Below, one piece after another: positions 29,298 to 38,574 of a stretch of DNA of 56,759 nt; positions within the stretch are counted from its first letter, which is position 1, and every line of letters begins with the position of its first letter. Location: positions 1 to 56,759 of the forward strand of contig BATO01000034.1 in the NCBI GenBank assembly GCA_000474255.1, read 5' to 3'. This DNA is from Aquipseudomonas alcaligenes MRY13-0052. Its GTDB lineage: Bacteria > Pseudomonadota > Gammaproteobacteria > Pseudomonadales > Pseudomonadaceae. Under the pieces are notes generated by a model. It worked only from the letters and a program-made list of their open reading frames with translations. It searched no databases and was not told the DNA's origin. A program made the position numbers and the translations under genes.

Positions 29298-29692
29298 GGT
29301 CGACTCCTGTTGCGGCTGCGGGCGGAGCCTGGGCGGCGGACGCCGGAGGGGCGGGCCTTGAGGCGGGAGGTGCTCAAGGCAGCGTAGTTCGGGGCCTGTG
29401 GCCTGACAAGGACGGTTACCGATGGCGCCGGGCAGGCTGGCGGACGTGTCCTAGACTGCTTGCGTGGGCGCATTCGCGATAAGCGAAGAAATAGGGAACA
29501 AGTACGCGCAGGCCCCCGTCCTAATTCGTATCGCCGCCAAACGGGGCGGTAGCCACCGTTCCGCTCTCCCGCCTGCACCAAGGCAGTGCGCGGTGGCGAG
29601 TGGCTGATTGCAAGTCATTGATACGTATAGGGTTGAGTCGCTGGCACGAGGCTTGCGACTGCAAGATGGTCGGTGGTGACAAGGAGTCCGGC
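29298..29692. other. Intergenic region before the Anbu operon
   Basis: This 395-base space between divergent genes carries no supported gene. I see the palindrome ATACGTAT at 29622-29629 and a small hairpin CTTGC-GACT-GCAAG at 29652-29665 just before the AAGGAG ribosome site of the ATP-grasp gene. Promoters for both directions should lie here. Confidence 0.5.
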
Positions 29693-31102
29693 ATGGCCCG
29701 CACCTTTTTTGACGAAATGTATGACGCGAACGGCGACTGCCGTCCGCATTACCGGGAATTCGCCCGCTGGTTGGCCGATACCCCCGAGGAACTGCTTGCC
29801 CAGAGGCGGCGCGAAGCCGACCTGCTGTTCCATAGGGCAGGCATCACCTTCACCCTCTACGGGGACGAGCAGGGCACCGAGCGCCTGATCCCCTTCGACA
29901 CCATTCCCCGCTCCATCCCCATGAGCGAGTGGCGCGTCGTCGAACGCGGCTGCATCCAGCGCGTCAAGGCGCTGAACATGTTCCTCGCCGACCTCTACCA
30001 CGGCCAGCGCATCATCAAGGCGGGCATCGTCCCGGCCGAGCAGGTGCTGGCCAACGAGGGCTACCAGATCGCCATGCAGGGCCTGGACCTGCACCGCGAC
30101 ATCTACGCCCATATCGCCGGCGTGGACCTGGTGCGCGACGGCGACGGCACCTACTACGTGCTCGAAGACAACCTGCGGACTCCCAGCGGCGTCAGCTACA
30201 TGCTGGAAGACCGCAAGATGATGATGCGCCTGTTCCCCGAGCTGTTCTCGGCCCAGCGCGTAGCCCCCATCGACCACTACCCGAACCTGCTGCTGGAGAC
30301 CCTCAAGAGCTCCAGCCCGCTGGATAACCCCAGCGTCGTGGTGCTCACCCCGGGGCGCTTCAACAGCGCCTACTTCGAGCACGCCTTCCTTGCCCGCGAG
30401 ATGGGCGTGGAACTGGTGGAGGGCGCCGACCTGTTCGTCCGCGACGACCGCGTCTACATGCGTACCACCTCCGGCCCGCAGCCGGTGGACGTAATCTACC
30501 GCCGCCTCGACGATGCCTTCCTTGACCCGCTGGCTTTCAACCCGGACTCCATGCTCGGCGTGCCCGGCCTGCTGGCGGCCTACCGCTCCGGCAACGTAGT
30601 GCTGGCCAACGCCATCGGCACCGGGGTGGCGGACGACAAGTCGATCTACCCCTATGTCGGCGACATGATCCGCTTCTACCTGGACGAGGAACCCATCCTC
30701 GCCAACGTGCCCACCTGGCAGTGCCGCAAGCCCGAGGAGCTGTCCCATGTGCTGGCCAACCTGCCGGAACTGGTGGTGAAGGAAACCCAGGGCTCCGGCG
30801 GCTACGGCATGCTGGTCGGCCCGGCCGCCACCAAGGCCGAGATCGAAGCCTTCCGCGAACGCCTCAAGGCGCGCCCGGAGGCCTACATCGCCCAGCCCAC
30901 GCTGAGCCTCTCCACCTGCCCGACCTTCGTCGAGAAGGGCATCGCCCCGCGGCATATCGACCTGCGCCCGTTCGTCCTCTCCGGCCGCGAAACGCGCCTG
31001 GTGCCCGGCGGCCTGACGCGCGTCGCGCTACGCGAAGGCTCGCTGGTGGTCAACTCGTCGCAGGGCGGCGGTACCAAAGACACCTGGATCGTGGAGGACT
31101 GA
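29693..31102 (+). CDS. Circularly permuted ATP-grasp type 2 protein (Anbu operon)
   Basis: A 469-residue protein of the CP_ATPgrasp/DUF404-407 family, predicted to form amide or peptide bonds using ATP. Recognisable blocks are [16 protein letters not shown] near residue 163, [17 protein letters not shown] near residue 360, and [24 protein letters not shown] near residue 423, which holds metal- and ATP-binding residues. AAGGAG precedes the ATG. It is the first gene of a four-gene set with alpha-E, transglutaminase and Anbu, separated from the second by three bases. The family is described bioinformatically as an amidoligase; its substrate is unknown. Confidence 0.92.
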
Positions 31103-31105
31103 CCC

Positions 31106-32056
31106 GTGCTGAGCCGTACTGCCTCCGATCTGTACTGGATGTCGCGCTACCTGGAACGCGCCGAGAACCTCGCGCGCATGCTCGATGTGAGCTACTCGCT
31201 GTCGCTGATGCCCCAGGACGGCCGTGGCGATGGCCTGGAAGAGCTGGCCATGCCGCTGCTGATCACCGGCACCCTGGACGCCTACCTGACCCGCCACGGC
31301 CAGCTGCACGCCGAGCGCATGCTGCACTTCTTTGCCCTCGATGCGGAGAACCCGGCGAGCATCTACAGCTGCCTGGGTGCCGCCCGTACCAACGCCCATG
31401 CCGTGCGCGGCCGCATCACAGCCGACATGTGGGAGAACATCAACGCCACCTGGCTGGAGATGCGCGGCATCGCCGGCGAGGGCCTGGGGCGCTATGGCAT
31501 CAAGCGCTTCTGCGAGTGGGTCAAGGAGCGTTCGCACCTGTTCCGCGGCGCCACCTTCGGCACCATCATGCGCCACGACCCCTACCGCTTCATCCGTCTC
31601 GGAACCTTCATAGAACGGGCGGACAATACGCTGCGCCTGCTCGATGCACGCTACGAGATGCTCGGCGAGGAGGCGGAGGAGGTCAGCGATACGTCCGCAC
31701 GTGGCTACTACCAGTGGAGCGCCTTGCTCCGCGCGCTGTCGTCCTTCGAGGCGTACACGGAAGTCTTCCGTGGCTCGCCCGGTGCGCGCCAGGTGTCCGA
31801 GCTGCTGTTGCTGCGCCCCGATGTGCCGCGCTCCCTGCGGGCCTGCATGGAGGAGCTCAACCTGATCCTCTCCAGCCTGCCCGGCGAGAACGGCCGGCCG
31901 GCCCAGCGCCTGGCCGCCGAGCTGGATGCACGCCTGCGCTACACGAGCATCGACGAGATCCTCGGTGAGGGCCTGCACGGCTGGCTCACCGACTTCATTC
32001 TGCTGGTTCGCCAATTGGCCAGAGCGATCCACAGCTCTTATCTGGAGGCCGTATGA
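31106..32056 (+). CDS. Alpha-E domain protein (Anbu operon)
   Basis: A 316-residue, nearly all-helical protein of the alpha-E (DUF403) family. It begins LSRTASDLYWMSRYLERAENLARML, the family hallmark, and contains FIRLGTFIERADNTLRLLDARYE near residue 166. Alpha-E proteins are always found with circularly permuted ATP-grasp partners, sometimes fused to them, and are thought to support the same ligation reaction. It starts with GTG three bases after the ATP-grasp stop and overlaps the transglutaminase gene by four bases (ATGA). Its biochemical role is not established. Confidence 0.92.
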   Translation: MLSRTASDLYWMSRYLERAENLARMLDVSYSLSLMPQDGRGDGLEELAMPLLITGTLDAYLTRHGQLHAERMLHFFALDAENPASIYSCLGAARTNAHAVRGRITADMWENINATWLEMRGIAGEGLGRYGIKRFCEWVKERSHLFRGATFGTIMRHDPYRFIRLGTFIERADNTLRLLDARYEMLGEEAEEVSDTSARGYYQWSALLRALSSFEAYTEVFRGSPGARQVSELLLLRPDVPRSLRACMEELNLILSSLPGENGRPAQRLAAELDARLRYTSIDEILGEGLHGWLTDFILLVRQLARAIHSSYLEAV

Positions 32057-32856
32057 AACTGTCCATCCGCCACGAAACCACCTATCGCTACGACGACCAG
32101 GTTCGCGCGAGCATCCAGTACCTGCGCCTGACGCCCCACGACAGCGAGCGCCAGCACATCCTCAGCTGGCAGCTCGACCTGCCACGCCCGGTGCGCGCGC
32201 AGATCGACCCCTACGGCAACATCCTCCACGTGCTGACCCTGGATGAACCCCACGAGGCCATCGTCATCGGCGCCCGTGGCCAGGTGGAGATCGACGAGCA
32301 CAGCGAGGCCGAGCACGACAAGCTCTCGGCGCTGCCCTTCCTGCGCTCCACCCGCCTGACTGCGGCGGACGAGGCATTGCGTGCCTTCGCCCACAACCAC
32401 TGCCAGCTGCGGCCAGAGCGCAGCGGCCTGATCACCCTGATGGACGCGCTGCACGAGCACATCGACTACCAGACCGGCGTCACCGCCGTGGACAGCACCG
32501 CCGCCGAGGCCTTCGCCGGTCGCGCGGGGGTTTGCCAGGACCATACCCACGCCTTCCTCGCCTGCGCCCGCACCCTCGGCGTGCCGGCGCGCTTCGTCTC
32601 CGGCTACCTGTACAAGGAGAACAACGCCCACCTGGTCAGCCACGCCTGGGCGGAGGCCTGGCTGGGCGATGCCTGGTACAGCTTCGACGTCACCAACCGT
32701 CTGTCCCGCCCGGAGCGCCACCTCAAGCTCGCCGTCGGCCTGGACTACCTGGACGCCTGCCCGGTGCGCGGCATGCGCCGTGGCGGCGGCGAGCAGATGC
32801 ACGCACGTGCGGATGTCGCCGTACCGCCGTTGCTGATGGTCCAGGAACAGCAGTAA
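32053..32856 (+). CDS. Transglutaminase-like cysteine protease (Anbu operon)
   Basis: A 267-residue protein with an N-terminal beta domain (Bact_transglu_N, about 1-85, beginning MKLSIRHETTYRYDDQVRAS) and a transglutaminase-like papain-fold core. The catalytic Cys is in GVCQDHTHAFL near residue 160, His in SHAWAEAWL near 197, and Asp in FDVTNRL near 213. Bacterial members of this operon are predicted peptidases or amidases rather than crosslinkers. Its ATG overlaps alpha-E. A 131-base gap containing a large hairpin follows before the Anbu gene. Confidence 0.92.
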   Translation: MKLSIRHETTYRYDDQVRASIQYLRLTPHDSERQHILSWQLDLPRPVRAQIDPYGNILHVLTLDEPHEAIVIGARGQVEIDEHSEAEHDKLSALPFLRSTRLTAADEALRAFAHNHCQLRPERSGLITLMDALHEHIDYQTGVTAVDSTAAEAFAGRAGVCQDHTHAFLACARTLGVPARFVSGYLYKENNAHLVSHAWAEAWLGDAWYSFDVTNRLSRPERHLKLAVGLDYLDACPVRGMRRGGGEQMHARADVAVPPLLMVQEQQ

Positions 32857-32879
32857 CACGCGTCACAGGACTTCTCGCC

Positions 32880-32937
32880 GCATCACCGGTCATTCGACTG
32901 CCCGCCTGCCATCCCGGCAGGCACGGGCCGGTGATGC
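32880..32937 (+). promoter_or_regulatory. Large stem-loop between transglutaminase and Anbu genes
   Basis: GCATCACCGG (32880-32889) pairs perfectly with CCGGTGATGC (32928-32937). Inside it GCCTGCC (32904-32910) pairs with GGCAGGC (32916-32922). There is no T run, so it is more likely an mRNA stability, attenuation or partial-termination element than a full terminator. Confidence 0.65.
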
Positions 32938-32987
32938 CGAAGCGCAAGGCGCGGGGGAGGCGGGGGGCATAAAAACGGGAGAGAACC

Positions 32988-33719
32988 ATGACCTACTGCG
33001 TCGCCATGCACCTTGCCGATGGCCTGGTGTTCGTTTCCGATTCGCGCACCAACGCGGGCATCGACCACATCGCCACCTTCCGCAAGCTCTTCACCTTCGG
33101 CACGCCGGGCGAACGCCTGATCGTGCTGCAGACGGCGGGCAACCTGGCCACCTCGCAATCGGTGGTCAACCTGCTCAAGCAGCGCCTGGGCAGTACCCTG
33201 GTGAACCTCGACAGCGTGCCCACGCTCTACGACGCCACCGCCCTGGTCGCCGAGACCATCCGCGAGGTGGTCGCCCGCGACGGCGCGCCGCTGGCGGGCA
33301 ACACCGACCTGACCTGCTCCTTCCTGGTCGGCGGGCAGATCGCCGGCCAGCCGCCCGCGCTGTACAGCATCTACCCCCAGGGCAACTTCATCCAGGCCAC
33401 CGAGGACACTCCCTTCCTGCAATTGGGGGAGAGCAAGTACGGCAAGCCGATCCTCGATCGCAACCTCAAGCACGACACCAGTCTGGAGGAGGCACTGCGC
33501 TGCGCGCTGGTCTCCTTCGACTCCACCATCCGCAGTAACCTCTCGGTGGGCATGCCGCTGGACCTACTGGTCTACCACACCGACAGCCTGATCCTCCCCG
33601 CCGGCTACCGCGTCACCGAAGACGACGAGTACTACGAAGGCGTGCGCCGCCAATGGGCCGCCGGCCTGCACGAGGTGCTGGAGAAGCTACCGGCGCCGCC
33701 GGCGGCGTACAACGTCTGA
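32988..33719 (+). CDS. Anbu, proteasome-type peptidase homologue
   Basis: A 243-residue Ntn-hydrolase of the Anbu (ancestral beta-subunit, bacterial proteasome homologue) family. After Met removal Thr2 would be the N-terminal nucleophile; the supporting residues are Asp18 in VSDSRTN and Lys33 in FRKLF, as in proteasome beta subunits. No propeptide is present. A GGGAGAG site precedes the ATG. It closes the four-gene operon with ATP-grasp, alpha-E and transglutaminase proteins. Anbu structures are known, but its natural substrate and physiological role are unclear. It lacks an HslU- or Mpa-like ATPase neighbour here. Confidence 0.93.
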   Translation: MTYCVAMHLADGLVFVSDSRTNAGIDHIATFRKLFTFGTPGERLIVLQTAGNLATSQSVVNLLKQRLGSTLVNLDSVPTLYDATALVAETIREVVARDGAPLAGNTDLTCSFLVGGQIAGQPPALYSIYPQGNFIQATEDTPFLQLGESKYGKPILDRNLKHDTSLEEALRCALVSFDSTIRSNLSVGMPLDLLVYHTDSLILPAGYRVTEDDEYYEGVRRQWAAGLHEVLEKLPAPPAAYNV

Positions 33720-33924: not shown

Positions 33925-36765
33925 TCACGCCGGCACCTCGCTACGGCGGATCTGTTCGAGGATGCTCGGGTCGTCGATCGCCCCGTCGTCCAGCAGCAGG
34001 AACAGCTTGCTGATGATCTCGCTGGTGCGTGCGTCGCTGTCGGCGAAGGGCAGGTAGAGGTCATCCGCTGGTTTGCCGGCGGGGACGATGCACAGGTAGT
34101 TGCCCGGCTCGATGTGGATGACCCCGCTGCCCAGGTGCAGCCGGTAGCGTGCGCGGCTGCCGGTGATGTGGGCGTGGTGGCCTTCGCAGCGCACGTTGGC
34201 CAGCCCCAGGTCGGCCACCAGCGCCTGCACCAGTTCGGCGCGGCGCTGGATGGTCTCGGCGCTGCCGGCGTGGCTGGCGGTCTCGCCGGTGAAGGCCACC
34301 GAGACGATCAGGTCGGCGTCGCGCAGGGTTTCGGAGAACAGCAGCGGCGGCACCTCCTCCAGCGGCAGGGCGGCGCGGTCGTGGACGAACTCCACCTCCC
34401 GCAGGGTGATGGCCTCGGTCAGGGGCAGGTAGCGCTGCGCATCGGGGAAGTTGAGGAAGGCGTACAGGCCCTGGCCCCAGTTGCGGAACACTTCCTCGCC
34501 ATCGTGGGTGGTCCAGCCCCGGGCCCGCAGCAGGCGCGCGGCCACGGCGCTGCGCAGCACATGGCCGGCGAAGCGCAGGGACTTCAGGCCGTTCTCCCGC
34601 TCGGCCGGGGTCAGCAGGTACAGCTCGCGGAACACCTGCTTGAACGGCTGCACCCGGCGCTGGGCCACCAGGGCCTGCTGCCAGGCGGAGAGCGCCCCGG
34701 CTTCGAACAGGTGCAGGGGGTGGGCGATCAGCAGCGGGCCGTCGATGGCACGGGCCGGTCCCACCAGGGGGCAGAGGGTGAAGGCGTCGCCGTCCAGCCA
34801 GCCCAGTTGGCCGTCACCGTCGCGCAGCACCAGGTGGTCCAGCAGCAGGCGCGCCGCCGGCATGCGCAGCAGCTGGCGCAGCTGCGTCAGCTCCAGGGCC
34901 TCGCCCCGCGCCATCATGGCTTCCAGGGTCAGGCGGAAGCGGCGGATCTGGTCCTTCATCCGGGCCTGCAGGGTCTTCAGCTCGGCCAGGCCTTCGTGCT
35001 TGCGCAGGGCGGCGGGTACCGACTTCAGGCGCTTGCCGCCCTTGCTGGCAACCATGACCGGGTTGAGGCCCTGCAACTCCAGCCACAGGTCGTAGCCGTC
35101 CAGGTGCAGGCGGTCCGGGGTCTGCTCGGCGATCTCCGCTTCCATCGCCCACTCCAGCCGGGTGGCGTCACCATAGCCGGCGGTGCGGGCGAGGTTCTCC
35201 AGGCCGGCCTGGATGGCGGCCTGGGAGTTGGCCTGGCGCTCGGCGCCGTAGCGTTCCACTTCGCGGTGATAACGCTTCAGGGCCAGGTAGCGCTCGCGGG
35301 TTTCGTCCGCGCCGCTGATGGGCAGCAGGCCGTAGGCGCGCAGGGCGGCCTGGGCGTGGCGCTGCAGCTTCTTCTCCAGGGCCTTGCGCTCCAGGCCACG
35401 GAAGGCGTCCAGCAGCAGGCGGGTGTTGGGGAAGGCCCAGGGCGTGCCGTCGAGGCTGGCCAGGTAGTCGGCCAGGTGCTCGGCGTCGGCCTGGTCCAGG
35501 GCGGCTTGCAGGGCGTCGCGGTCCACCACGCCCAGCTCCGGGTCGTCGCTGCTCTGCAGGTCTTCCACCAGTCGCCCGCTGTGGTCGACGGCCAGCGCCA
35601 GGTCGAGGTAGAGGCGTTGCAGGGGCTTCAGGTCGCTCCAGCCGAGGGCGTCCAGCACCGCTTCACTGGCCGCACCGCTGAAGGGCAGGGCGGTGAGCAG
35701 GCTGGCGCGGGGGAAGCCGGCAAGCTGCTTGGCCAGTTCGGCCTCGTCGTCCTTTTCCAGGTGACCGACGTCGAGCAGGGCGGTCAGTACCCGGCCCAGG
35801 TGGTTTTCGTAGTGTCTTTCGAGGGCGTCCGGCGCCAGGTCGAGGCGCGACAGTTCGCGCACGCCGGCCAGCAGCCAGTGTGCAGTGGAGGTTCCGGGCT
35901 CATCGATCAGGCTTCGCAACAGCGTGGCGCTGTCCGGCAGTTGGGCCAGCGCGTGATCGACGAACTCGGCGTTGAGCGCGTCGAGCCGTTGCTCGCCCGT
36001 GCTGTCGCCTTGGACGAGGGGCGGCAGCGTGCACAGGCTCTCGGCCCAGGTGTGCACCGCTCGCTCGTGCAGGGTCGCCTCCAGGCGGCCGGCCTCGGCC
36101 AGGCCCACGGCGAAGCGCCGGATGGCCTCCGTCGCCTTGCCTTGGTAGACCTCGGCGAGGCGCGGGTAGTCAGCGTTCTCGGCGGGGCTGGGGCGGTCCC
36201 ACCCGCCGCCGAGCAGCCACTGGGCGAAGTCCAGCCAGGCACCGTCGACGGGGTGCCCGGCGAGCAGCGCCAGGCAGTCTTCCAGGTTGGGCGTGACCCA
36301 GGCGCCGGTGGGGTAGTGCCAGTGGGCCTGGGCCTTGAAGCCGGGTTGCAGGGCGTAGTCGCTGTCTTCGAAGGCCTGGGTCAGCATGTGCCGCACACGC
36401 CGTTCCAGGGCCTGGAAGCCATAGGCGCCGGGGTGCGCCGTGACGCCCGCATGGCTGGCGATCTGGGCCAGGCGCTGGCGGGTGTAGAGGTGCTCGGTCT
36501 CGTCGTGGCCCCAGATGCGCGGGAAGACCAGGGCATCCACCAGGGCGGGCTGGCCGTCGGGGCCGGCTTCGGCGAGGAAGGCGTCGGCCAGGGCGAGGCC
36601 GTCGACCTCGTCCCAGAACGGGTGCTGGTAGCCGTCTTCGGCCAGCAGGGCGTCGCGCTCGGGCAGGGCATCCAGGGTGCGGTCGAGGAAGGCATCGAGC
36701 AGGGCGATGCGGGCCTGCTGGCGGGTGTCGGCTTGGTAATGCTGCATGGGGAGTCCGTTCGTCAT
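33925..36765 (-). CDS. DUF4132-type large protein
   Basis: A 946-residue protein, largely helical, whose C-terminal third matches the DUF4132/MolR-YehI group. Key segments are LRRFRLTLEAMMARGEAL-like and LPLTEAITLREVEFVHD, and the end with YRLHLGSGVIHIEPGNYLCIVP followed by LYLPFADSDARTSEIISKLFLLLDD. There is no signal peptide, TM helix or WGR domain. The ATG at 36765 is four bases after the stop of the diglycine protein gene; ATG 36747 is an alternative. Tight coupling implies joint function. The family has no firmly known biochemical activity, and no catalytic motif is evident to me. Confidence 0.8.
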   Translation of the reverse strand: MTNGLPMQHYQADTRQQARIALLDAFLDRTLDALPERDALLAEDGYQHPFWDEVDGLALADAFLAEAGPDGQPALVDALVFPRIWGHDETEHLYTRQRLAQIASHAGVTAHPGAYGFQALERRVRHMLTQAFEDSDYALQPGFKAQAHWHYPTGAWVTPNLEDCLALLAGHPVDGAWLDFAQWLLGGGWDRPSPAENADYPRLAEVYQGKATEAIRRFAVGLAEAGRLEATLHERAVHTWAESLCTLPPLVQGDSTGEQRLDALNAEFVDHALAQLPDSATLLRSLIDEPGTSTAHWLLAGVRELSRLDLAPDALERHYENHLGRVLTALLDVGHLEKDDEAELAKQLAGFPRASLLTALPFSGAASEAVLDALGWSDLKPLQRLYLDLALAVDHSGRLVEDLQSSDDPELGVVDRDALQAALDQADAEHLADYLASLDGTPWAFPNTRLLLDAFRGLERKALEKKLQRHAQAALRAYGLLPISGADETRERYLALKRYHREVERYGAERQANSQAAIQAGLENLARTAGYGDATRLEWAMEAEIAEQTPDRLHLDGYDLWLELQGLNPVMVASKGGKRLKSVPAALRKHEGLAELKTLQARMKDQIRRFRLTLEAMMARGEALELTQLRQLLRMPAARLLLDHLVLRDGDGQLGWLDGDAFTLCPLVGPARAIDGPLLIAHPLHLFEAGALSAWQQALVAQRRVQPFKQVFRELYLLTPAERENGLKSLRFAGHVLRSAVAARLLRARGWTTHDGEEVFRNWGQGLYAFLNFPDAQRYLPLTEAITLREVEFVHDRAALPLEEVPPLLFSETLRDADLIVSVAFTGETASHAGSAETIQRRAELVQALVADLGLANVRCEGHHAHITGSRARYRLHLGSGVIHIEPGNYLCIVPAGKPADDLYLPFADSDARTSEIISKLFLLLDDGAIDDPSILEQIRRSEVPA

Positions 36766-36769
36766 GGGC

Positions 36770-37213
36770 TTAACCACCCACCAGGGGGACCAGGCGCAGG
36801 AAGGTGAGCCGGGCCTGGGCGGGCAGGTCGAGGGAGTGGTCGAGGTCGTGGAGCATCTGGCCGTCGAGGAGGACGCGGTAGCGGCGCTGGCGGAAGCCGT
36901 CCAGGGCGCGCTGCACCTCGGCTTCGGCGTCGATCCGTGGGGCGCCGGGCACCTGGGTGCGCAGCTTGATGGCGCCCCGGGCGGACTGGTGGCGGATGTC
37001 TTCTTCGCTGAGGTAGCCGGGGCCGCTGCTGGCCTGCAGGCGGTCCAGCCAGCGCTCGGTGGTCTGTTCGGCCACGACATGCAGCACCACCCGGCGGATC
37101 AGCTCGCCCAGGGTGAGCCGGGAAGCGTCCAGGTGCAGGTTCAGGTCCGGGGTGAGGGCCTCATTGCGGGCCCCGCGCAGGACCAGGCTTTCGACGTGGA
37201 GCTCGGTGCTCAT
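36770..37213 (-). CDS. Candidate ubiquitin-like beta-grasp protein with C-terminal Gly-Gly
   Basis: A 147-residue protein I do not recognise as a named family. Its N-terminus reads as beta hairpin (about 4-13 and 24-30) then helix (TLGELIRRVVLHVVAEQ, 34-50). Its C-terminus reads as strand (YRVLLDG, 112-118), a turn region, strand (LTFLRLV, 136-142) and the exact terminus Val-Gly-Gly. Residues 118-147 align without gaps to the last 30 residues of ubiquitin with 9 identities by eye, including both glycines. About 60 residues are inserted between helix and strand. GGGAG precedes the ATG. The DUF4132 gene follows after four bases. No E1, E2 or JAB-type gene is nearby, so conjugation is unproven. 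Confidence 0.68.
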   Translation of the reverse strand: MSTELHVESLVLRGARNEALTPDLNLHLDASRLTLGELIRRVVLHVVAEQTTERWLDRLQASSGPGYLSEEDIRHQSARGAIKLRTQVPGAPRIDAEAEVQRALDGFRQRRYRVLLDGQMLHDLDHSLDLPAQARLTFLRLVPLVGG

Positions 37214-37303
37214 GCTGGCTCTCCCGGCCGGCGGTTCAGGTGGGAGAGCGTAGCGCCGGCGCGGTTGGCGGAGAAGCCCGGCCGCCACCGTCCGTGAGGG
37301 CCG

Positions 37304-38098
37304 TCACGGCGTCTTGCGGCCGCTCATGTGGCGCAGGTAGGCGACCAGCTGTTCCAGCTGCGCGTCGTCGATCACCGCGGCGGGGAAGGCGGGCATGCGC
37401 CCTTGCGGCCAGCGACGCATGGCCTGCGGGTCGCGGATGTAGCGCTGGAGGAAGCCTTCGGCGAAGTATTCGGTGGGGTTGTAGGGCAGGTTGAGGTCGG
37501 GGCCGAACTGGGCGTCGCCGGCACCGTTGAGGCGGTGGCAGGCCAGGCAGTTCTTCTGGAACTGGGCGAAGCCGGCCTGGATGTCGGCGCTTGCATCGCT
37601 CGCCGGCAGCAGCGCGGGGAAGCGCTCGACGACCGCAGCCAGGTAGCGCAACTTCGCCACCTGGAAGGGCCACTGTTCCGGGCCTATGCCGCCAGCCTGC
37701 GGGTCCGTCCACACCAGGTAGAAGGGCCCGGCGCTGGGCTTGCCCTTGGCCAGTGGCGGCCAGGGCTTGCCCGGGTCTTCTACCGCCAGCCAGGCCCGGG
37801 CGCCCTCCTTGGCGAGCAGGGGCGTGGCGGGCAATTCGGCGGCGAACCCGTCCAGCGCCACGGCCTGCAGGTGCTGGCCGGGTTCGACCCCATCCAGCAA
37901 CGCTGCCAGGGGCAGGGCGCGGTAATGCATGGTGCGCTTGTAGGCGACGTCGGCGGGTACCTCGATATCCCGCGCCTGGGGGTGGGCCAGCAGCCTGGCG
38001 CTGTCCCAGCGCTGCGTGCCGCCGGGCAATTCGAGCAGCAGCTCGGCGGCGTGCAGGGTAGGGGTCAGCAACAGCAGGCAGAACAGCAGGTGGCGCAT
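37304..38098 (-). CDS. Periplasmic cytochrome c with N-terminal molybdopterin-like domain
   Basis: A 264-residue secreted protein. The signal peptide is LLFCLLLLTPTLHAAE (cleavage near residue 18). Residues 20-160 resemble the cofactor-less oxidoreductase molybdopterin-binding-like fold (RWDSARLLAHPQA, then YRALPLAALLDGVEPG). Residues 175-264 form a class I cytochrome c domain with haem motif CLACH and the distal Met in GRMPAFPAAVIDD. The ATG overlaps the rhodanese stop by four bases. An electron-transfer role linked to sulfur metabolism is plausible from the pairing, but is inference. Confidence 0.85.
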   Translation of the reverse strand: MRHLLFCLLLLTPTLHAAELLLELPGGTQRWDSARLLAHPQARDIEVPADVAYKRTMHYRALPLAALLDGVEPGQHLQAVALDGFAAELPATPLLAKEGARAWLAVEDPGKPWPPLAKGKPSAGPFYLVWTDPQAGGIGPEQWPFQVAKLRYLAAVVERFPALLPASDASADIQAGFAQFQKNCLACHRLNGAGDAQFGPDLNLPYNPTEYFAEGFLQRYIRDPQAMRRWPQGRMPAFPAAVIDDAQLEQLVAYLRHMSGRKTP

Positions 38099-38454
38099 CA
38101 GGGTGTGTCCAGAATCGGCTTGAGGGTGGTGTAGCCGCCGGCATTCTGCACATTGGTGTAGCCCCTGGCACGCAGATCGTCCTGGGCGATGCCGGAGCGG
38201 CGACCGCTTCGACAGTAGAGGACGATAGGGGTGTGTTTGTCCGGTGCCAGTTCCGCGATTTTCGTACCAATGTCTTCGAAGCCGATGTAACGGGCACCGG
38301 GCAAGGCTCCTGCCTCGATTTCTTCCGGCGTACGCACGTCGATCAGCACAGCGCCCGGTTGCTTCAGTGCTTCCAGCGCCGCTGCCTGGTCGACATCGGC
38401 GGCGAGTGCGGGAAGGCTGAGGGAAAGGGCCAGTGTGGCGAGCATCTTGCGCAT
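38098..38454 (-). CDS. Periplasmic rhodanese-like protein
   Basis: A 118-residue single rhodanese domain with a signal peptide (LATLALSLSLPALAAD, cleavage near residue 19). The active-site loop is VLYCRSGRRS with Cys near residue 79, the six-residue loop size of sulfurtransferases rather than Cdc25-like phosphatases. CH2A-like VLIDVRTPEE is near residue 36. An AGGGAG site seven bases before the ATG fixes the start. It is the first gene of a pair with the cytochrome c gene, suggesting periplasmic sulfur transfer coupled to electron transport. Confidence 0.9.
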   Translation of the reverse strand: MRKMLATLALSLSLPALAADVDQAAALEALKQPGAVLIDVRTPEEIEAGALPGARYIGFEDIGTKIAELAPDKHTPIVLYCRSGRRSGIAQDDLRARGYTNVQNAGGYTTLKPILDTP

Positions 38455-38574
38455 GGTGTAACTCCCTGAAAAACAAGAACCCTTGGACCCTAGCACAATT
38501 GCCGGAGGTCATCGCCAGCCGTTAGGATCGGGCCTTTCCGTCATTCCACGCCCCTCCGGGCTAAGGAGCGGGCC

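Follow-up and report, generated by a model that had tools for sequence, protein, structure and literature searches.

We have identified a recurrent two-gene module in a 56,759-nucleotide stretch of DNA from Aquipseudomonas alcaligenes MRY13-0052 (contig BATO01000034.1, assembly GCA_000474255.1; the whole stretch is hereafter called the window), in which a small open reading frame (ORF) ending in Gly-Gly (GG) is followed by a gene for a large protein with DUF4132 and DUF7737 domains. The pair recurs across bacterial genomes, and the small protein represents a new family. A low-confidence structural model lends support to a predicted beta-grasp (ubiquitin/MoaD-like) fold for the small protein. 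With a probability of roughly 0.5, we hypothesize that it serves the DUF4132-DUF7737 protein as a MoaD-like subunit with a GG tail, acting in a stress or damage response.

The original prediction had described a 147-residue ubiquitin-like candidate at 36770-37213, with the strand left unnamed. That ORF was confirmed and is encoded on the minus strand, whereas the plus strand over the same interval holds an unrelated GC-rich shadow frame. Its translation ends in FLRLVPLVGG with the stop codon directly after the second Gly, so that the GG is exposed without processing, as had been claimed. Its gapless alignment with ubiquitin's last 30 residues was likewise reproduced with exactly the nine identities listed. 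Shuffled segments with the final GG fixed reached nine identities in 0.67% of 20,000 cases (mean 4.6), a figure uncorrected for the choice of register, and we regard the match as suggestive.

The small ORF is a gene and not a chance reading frame. Orthologues in two congeners, one of them P. otitidis, are 82% identical to it, and a distant paralogue on another contig of the same genome (34% identical) ends in FLRLLPLVGG. Between the window and P. otitidis, 16 synonymous and 8 non-synonymous codon changes fall outside an insert at residues 51-93, and 5 synonymous and 18 non-synonymous changes fall within it. Over the whole ORF, the non-synonymous (dN) and synonymous (dS) rates were 0.112 and 0.266 for window-otitidis (ratio ~0.42), 0.106 and 0.149 for the window and congener genome G004 (~0.71), and 0.030 and 0.155 for otitidis-G004 (~0.19). 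Based on these counts and ratios, the insert is fast-changing, with a codon pattern such as would arise under relaxed or diversifying selection, while both halves of the core are held. Profile scans of the small ORF returned no Pfam family and no NCBIfam match, and none of nine scanned relatives reached the Pfam cut-off. A sequence search of the PDB gave nothing for the small ORF and a single chance-level row for the family profile (A6).

Members of the small-protein family were found in Pseudomonadota, Actinomycetota, Deinococcota and Bacteroidota. The paralogue in the window's genome is likewise followed by a DUF4132-DUF7737 gene, and searches with the small protein recovered the same pair in two genomes of the same class (G195 and G356), one of the same phylum (G602), Nonomuraea (Actinomycetota) and Novosphingobium. 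Searches from the DUF side added pairs in G945, four Deinococcus, Bacteroides finegoldii, another genus of the same class (G1136 and G1151) and a second genome of the window's species. The DUF-side set covered two of the four matched places in Nonomuraea and left out Acetobacter matches H8 and H9, identical to H7 in identity and bits, and matches H15-H26 and H28-H34, which stop short of the query's DUF7737 portion. Among the matches to the small protein, one in G582 (E 4.8e-4) lies inside a 742-aa frame.

Of 23 intact DUF7737 loci, 19 have the small ORF immediately upstream. The small ORF itself led to some of these loci, so those reached first from the DUF side give the fairer figure, 10 of 14 (8 of 12 without two from the window's own species). 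For these adjacency counts the model excluded the row under test or its close group, the alignment itself having been built with all rows. Intact loci without the small ORF upstream were the second Nonomuraea copy, Acetobacter oryzifermentans and both copies in G1128. It was also not found in any of three broken or fragmentary DUF7737 loci (L038, L053 and L054) or in any of three loci carrying a YehI-type DUF4132 gene without DUF7737 (L035, L036 and L037). The first of the latter belongs to the window's genome (G000, contig C218), where the YehI-type gene is followed by an AAA-like gene and others. Of 11 lineage representatives, 10 have a spacing between small ORF and partner of -4 to 54 nt, and the value of -31 in the eleventh derives from an uncorrected ORF start. 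Across the 11 lineages, in which the L085 row is one residue short (its true end being LVGG), distances between small proteins correlate with those between partners (Mantel r 0.80, p 0.0002), although this test had no control gene and shared ancestry alone could give the correlation. DUF7737 is itself rare. A phylum sample yielded it in 4 of 299 genomes, the class of G602 in 3 of 190 and the window's family in 4 of 198 (all one genus); at the level of orders, the counts were 4 of 79 for that of G195, 1 of 24 for that of G356 and 1 of 7 for that of G945. All of these counts include the centre genome, and the samples are partly overlapping.

Variable C-termini among homologues had been named beforehand as a finding that could refute the original prediction. 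Among the 19 copies with the partner next to them, 18 retain the terminal GG, corresponding to 10 of 11 lineages and three of four phyla. A chance GG end was rejected on comparison of these counts with the background, since ~2.2% of ORFs of at least 100 aa end in GG (23/1026 in 12 loci, the family itself counted). Four relatives that lack a partner gene beside them are homologous over their full length (hhalign 99.6%) and end in VGG, VAG, IAG and ADS, so that GG occurs in one of the four. This side branch comprises L030-L033 (genomes G108, G157, G089 and G373), with no DUF4132 gene adjacent. A 227-aa membrane-like protein is encoded next to a side-branch member in L012 and L013, the L031 copy having no Pfam match, and a similar membrane-like protein of 219 aa was noted by eye ~3 kb away in L030.

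The family includes a published stress gene of Deinococcus. The D. radiodurans pair M7777_RS14365/14370 corresponds to drA0165-drA0166, based on the upstream trxC, the downstream DUF4132 gene and an exact copy of the printed operator. The drA0165-drA0166 operon is strongly upregulated upon DdrO depletion, and mitomycin C raises DRA0166-V5 in the wild type, an effect not seen in the irrE mutant (PMC8533742). DR_A0165 is induced by irradiation and H2O2, and its deletion improves H2O2 survival. It binds Trx1, groups with Rsr and DR_1261 in a STRING cluster, and has 157 shared co-immunoprecipitated proteins, the largest clusters being translation proteins and chaperones, which C-terminally tagged forms recover too (PMC9650054). 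The same paper states that DR_A0165 is confined to Deinococcus and lacks a radiation/desiccation response motif (RDRM) operator. Our family counts disagree with the first statement and the operator match with the second: the DdrO operator sequence printed in PMC8533742 is present upstream of the D. radiodurans ORF at 20 of 20 bases, and operator-like sites lie upstream in all three other Deinococcus loci, one with 2 mismatches to the consensus and the others differing from the D. radiodurans site at 1 and 3 positions. The homologue in Deinococcus sp. D7000 is annotated as 100 aa (L056:1571-1873), with a start inside the conserved frame and an upstream ATG at 1469. The annotated start looks too late, and the published D. 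radiodurans constructs may likewise be short.

The main text of PMC9650054 makes no mention of ubiquitin. In the literature searched, which left most subscription papers and preprints outside, no description was found of the small ORF-DUF4132-DUF7737 pairing as a ubiquitin-like module, and no mention of DUF5724 or DUF7737. The papers found naming DUF4132 report, in their available portions, no tested biochemical function for it.

The beta-grasp fold proposed in the original prediction is supported by a low-confidence AlphaFold model of the small protein, which aligns to MoaD, ubiquitin and SAMP1. Fold-comparison rows include MoaD/MOCS2A (among the top), SAMP1 (3po0 and 4hro) and BubA (9ea8). 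A published prediction for DR_A0165 gives structural similarity to the same folds, MOCS2 and SAMP1 (PMC9650054). Membership of the ThiS/MoaD family by sequence was rejected (hhalign probability 1%, with no Pfam family as above), and the small protein was not among the matches in a PF02597 profile search of seven genomes. These fold rows could suggest that the small protein is a sulfur carrier serving molybdopterin or a related cofactor, and that the part of MoaE or ThiG is played by the DUF4132-DUF7737 protein. The suggestion that the DUF4132 of DRA0166 may take part in molybdopterin biosynthesis (PMC8533742) and the location of modA and thi within a few kb in D. radiodurans would fit such a role, but all seven genomes searched already carry their own standard ThiS/MoaD genes, modA and thi are not among the annotated neighbors in D. 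ficus, D. sp. D7000 and D. psychrotolerans, and moeA and moeB were unchanged (PMC8533742). We consider a carrier of this kind improbable.

According to our favored hypothesis, the small beta-grasp protein would form a two-gene module with the large DUF4132-DUF7737 protein, and its GG tail would dock in a pocket of the partner, probably built from the conserved FSE-x-x-RD-x-D and Y-x-IHLGS motifs. MoaD and ThiS tails dock into MoaE and ThiG, respectively, and the proposed docking is likened to these pairs. A scan for pattern matches only, run on the partner proteins of all intact loci but L087 and L088 (21 of 23), found an FSE..RD.D-type pattern in 15 and a Y.[ILV]H[LFI]GS pattern in 19. Neither was found in the two YehI-type controls scanned (L036 and L037, with L035 outside the scan). 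The C-terminal part of the partner also contains polar residues that are invariant in 12 proteins (e.g. H682, R713, E722, R731, D816, H877, S880, D911 and D932), as expected of a putative active or binding site. If the tail carries chemistry, whether as an adenylate, thiocarboxylate or conjugate, activation would take place in trans by a housekeeping MoeB/ThiF-type E1, because no E1 is encoded nearby: in seven of seven genomes, PF00899 matches were located on other contigs or, in the single-contig genome G004, at least 0.66 Mb away. We infer both the entry of the tail into the partner site and any activation of the tail at all. Action in stress or damage responses has been shown in print for Deinococcus; elsewhere, we infer it.

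Less probably, the small protein would act on the DUF4132-DUF7737 protein as a non-covalent ubiquitin-fold adaptor or regulator, comparable to Hub1 or YukD/EsaB, with the GG as a binding tail devoid of chemistry. Two observations count against GG-dependent chemistry, and a third is neutral to unfavorable. The Bacteroides copy ends in SGRLW and lacks the GG, yet keeps its partner; the published DR_A0165 co-immunoprecipitation contacts were obtained with C-terminal tags too and need no free C-terminus (PMC9650054); and, as the neutral to unfavorable point, L085 and L086 carry the small ORF yet gave no match to the partner motif patterns. The Bacteroides copy and the tagged contacts would both suit an adaptor, as would the lack of a nearby E1 and the varying tails of the side branch. 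Retention of the GG to the extent described above, however, exceeds what a generic binding tail would need.

The original prediction favored a true protein modifier, in which the C-terminal Gly would be activated in trans and conjugated to lysines, with the DUF4132-DUF7737 protein as ligase or principal substrate. The exposed GG, the presence of SAMP1 and ubiquitin among the fold matches and the many proteins (157) co-immunoprecipitated with DR_A0165 (PMC9650054) would agree with this, but the module has no E1 near it (E2 and JAB were not searched by profile), the available DR_A0165 literature mentions no conjugate, and the top co-immunoprecipitation clusters are translation proteins and chaperones that are recovered with C-terminal tags as well (PMC9650054). 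Conjugation to lysines in this sense appears quite unlikely to us. A broader proposal, which we view as unlikely, is a new bacterial ubiquitin-like pathway in which the GG tail would be activated and transferred to lysines or a small molecule, either by the DUF4132-DUF7737 protein itself or with a borrowed E1, in a DNA/RNA-damage response spanning at least four phyla.

Table 1. Positions of the two genes of the module and of their parts within the window
Feature	Position	Strand	Details
GG-ending ubiquitin-like ORF (P0002)	36770..37213	minus	147 aa; homologues found
C-terminal strand and tail FLRLVPLVGG, residues 138-147	36773..36802	minus	well conserved in family; family comparison
Fast-changing insert, residues 51-93, between helix 1 and C-terminal half	36935..37063	minus	codon changes vs P. 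otitidis; AlphaFold model
Partner gene (P0003)	33925..36765	minus	946 aa; start 4 nt past the small ORF's stop
DUF4132 domain of partner	34513..35037	minus	PF13569, E 3.9e-36
DUF7737 domain of partner, with YRLHLGS motif	33949..34248	minus	PF24879, E 3.2e-31
Partner segment matching C-terminal end of DUF5724, as in Deinococcus and Bacteroides partners	35143..35355	minus	PF18991, E 2.1e-16

The surroundings of the module differ between genomes (Table 1 gives the positions of its own parts). In the window, a set of plus-strand genes at 29600-33719 encodes circularly permuted ATP-grasp, alpha-E, transglutaminase-like and proteasome-fold proteins, the last of which we take to be Anbu, and ends ~200 bp from the partner gene. 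An Anbu/proteasome link was rejected, as the set is beside the module in the window and G004 and absent in P. otitidis, and is not a stable partner. When the Anbu protein was tested on 12 loci (two being the same P. otitidis region), only the G004 locus matched. In G195, Band_7-RtcB-RtcA-RlaP-HD genes flank the pair on one side, and its opposite flank encodes a kinase/HD protein, an RNA ligase and a proteasome-fold protein. This RNA-repair island, together with the published Rsr link, hints at RNA or general damage repair, at one locus. The proteasome-fold protein of G195 (L028:13099-13686) is encoded ~3.4 kb from the module, as Anbu is near the window's module, which may be coincidence; profile scans for the proteasome fold covered the window and G195.

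A rhodanese ORF at 38098-38496 on the minus strand was considered as a link to sulfur transfer and rejected, since among the 12 loci it matched only the window's genus. It has a signal-peptide-like start by inspection and sits with a cytochrome c gene. The window's rhodanese and cytochrome c genes (within 33925-38496) are closest to G004, with 92-94% DNA identity, and the G004 small ORF and C-terminal part of its partner are closest to P. otitidis, with 94-97% DNA identity; allele exchange across 33925-38496 is possible. Near the paralogue module, L006:1360-6162 encodes a tandem-AAA protein, a WYL regulator and a 260-aa protein without a Pfam match. A phage origin was rejected, since phage records gave no match and three scans of viral contigs no confirmed relative, as was a defense system, for which PADLOC models applied to seven proteins gave one weak match only (Cmr3, E 0.034).

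The module links an unclassified family of GG-ending proteins with a predicted ubiquitin fold both to DUF4132-DUF7737 proteins and to drA0165-drA0166, stress genes already described in print. The pairing suggests that a ubiquitin-like subunit may dock on DUF4132-DUF7737 proteins, and points to a bacterial ubiquitin-like module without an E1 gene beside it. It extends DR_A0165 beyond its stated restriction to Deinococcus and contradicts the published absence of an upstream DdrO operator.

Compared with known systems, the module resembles MoaD/ThiS (PF02597) in its predicted fold, its C-terminal hydrophobic strand followed by x-GG and the partner encoded beside it, but differs in having no significant sequence match, ~60 extra residues after helix 1 and no adjacent E1. 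SAMP1 and the archaeal ubiquitin-like modifiers share the fold rows and the GG end, whereas the small ORF module has no linked E1 and its conjugation is hypothetical. Bub/Bil-type and other bacterial ubiquitin-like operons (E1, E2 and JAB) similarly encode a bacterial ubiquitin-fold protein, with BubA as a fold row, but have an E1 where this module has none beside it. The two-gene layout with DUF4132-DUF7737 is not among the ubiquitin-like operon types in the available portion of Iyer 2006 (PMC1779556). YehI/MolR-type DUF4132 proteins have the DUF4132 domain in common with the partner, but lack DUF7737 and the small ORF, and occur in clusters with AAA MoxR-like and DUF5682 genes. Such clusters also hold VWA and SWIM genes. 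DR_A0165 (SEP068184) of D. radiodurans belongs to the same family (E 3e-25 with Deinococcus rows out of the model), lies upstream of a DUF5724-DUF4132-DUF7737 gene and has a GG end; in print it is restricted to Deinococcus and lacks a DdrO operator, whereas here the family spans four phyla and the operator is present.
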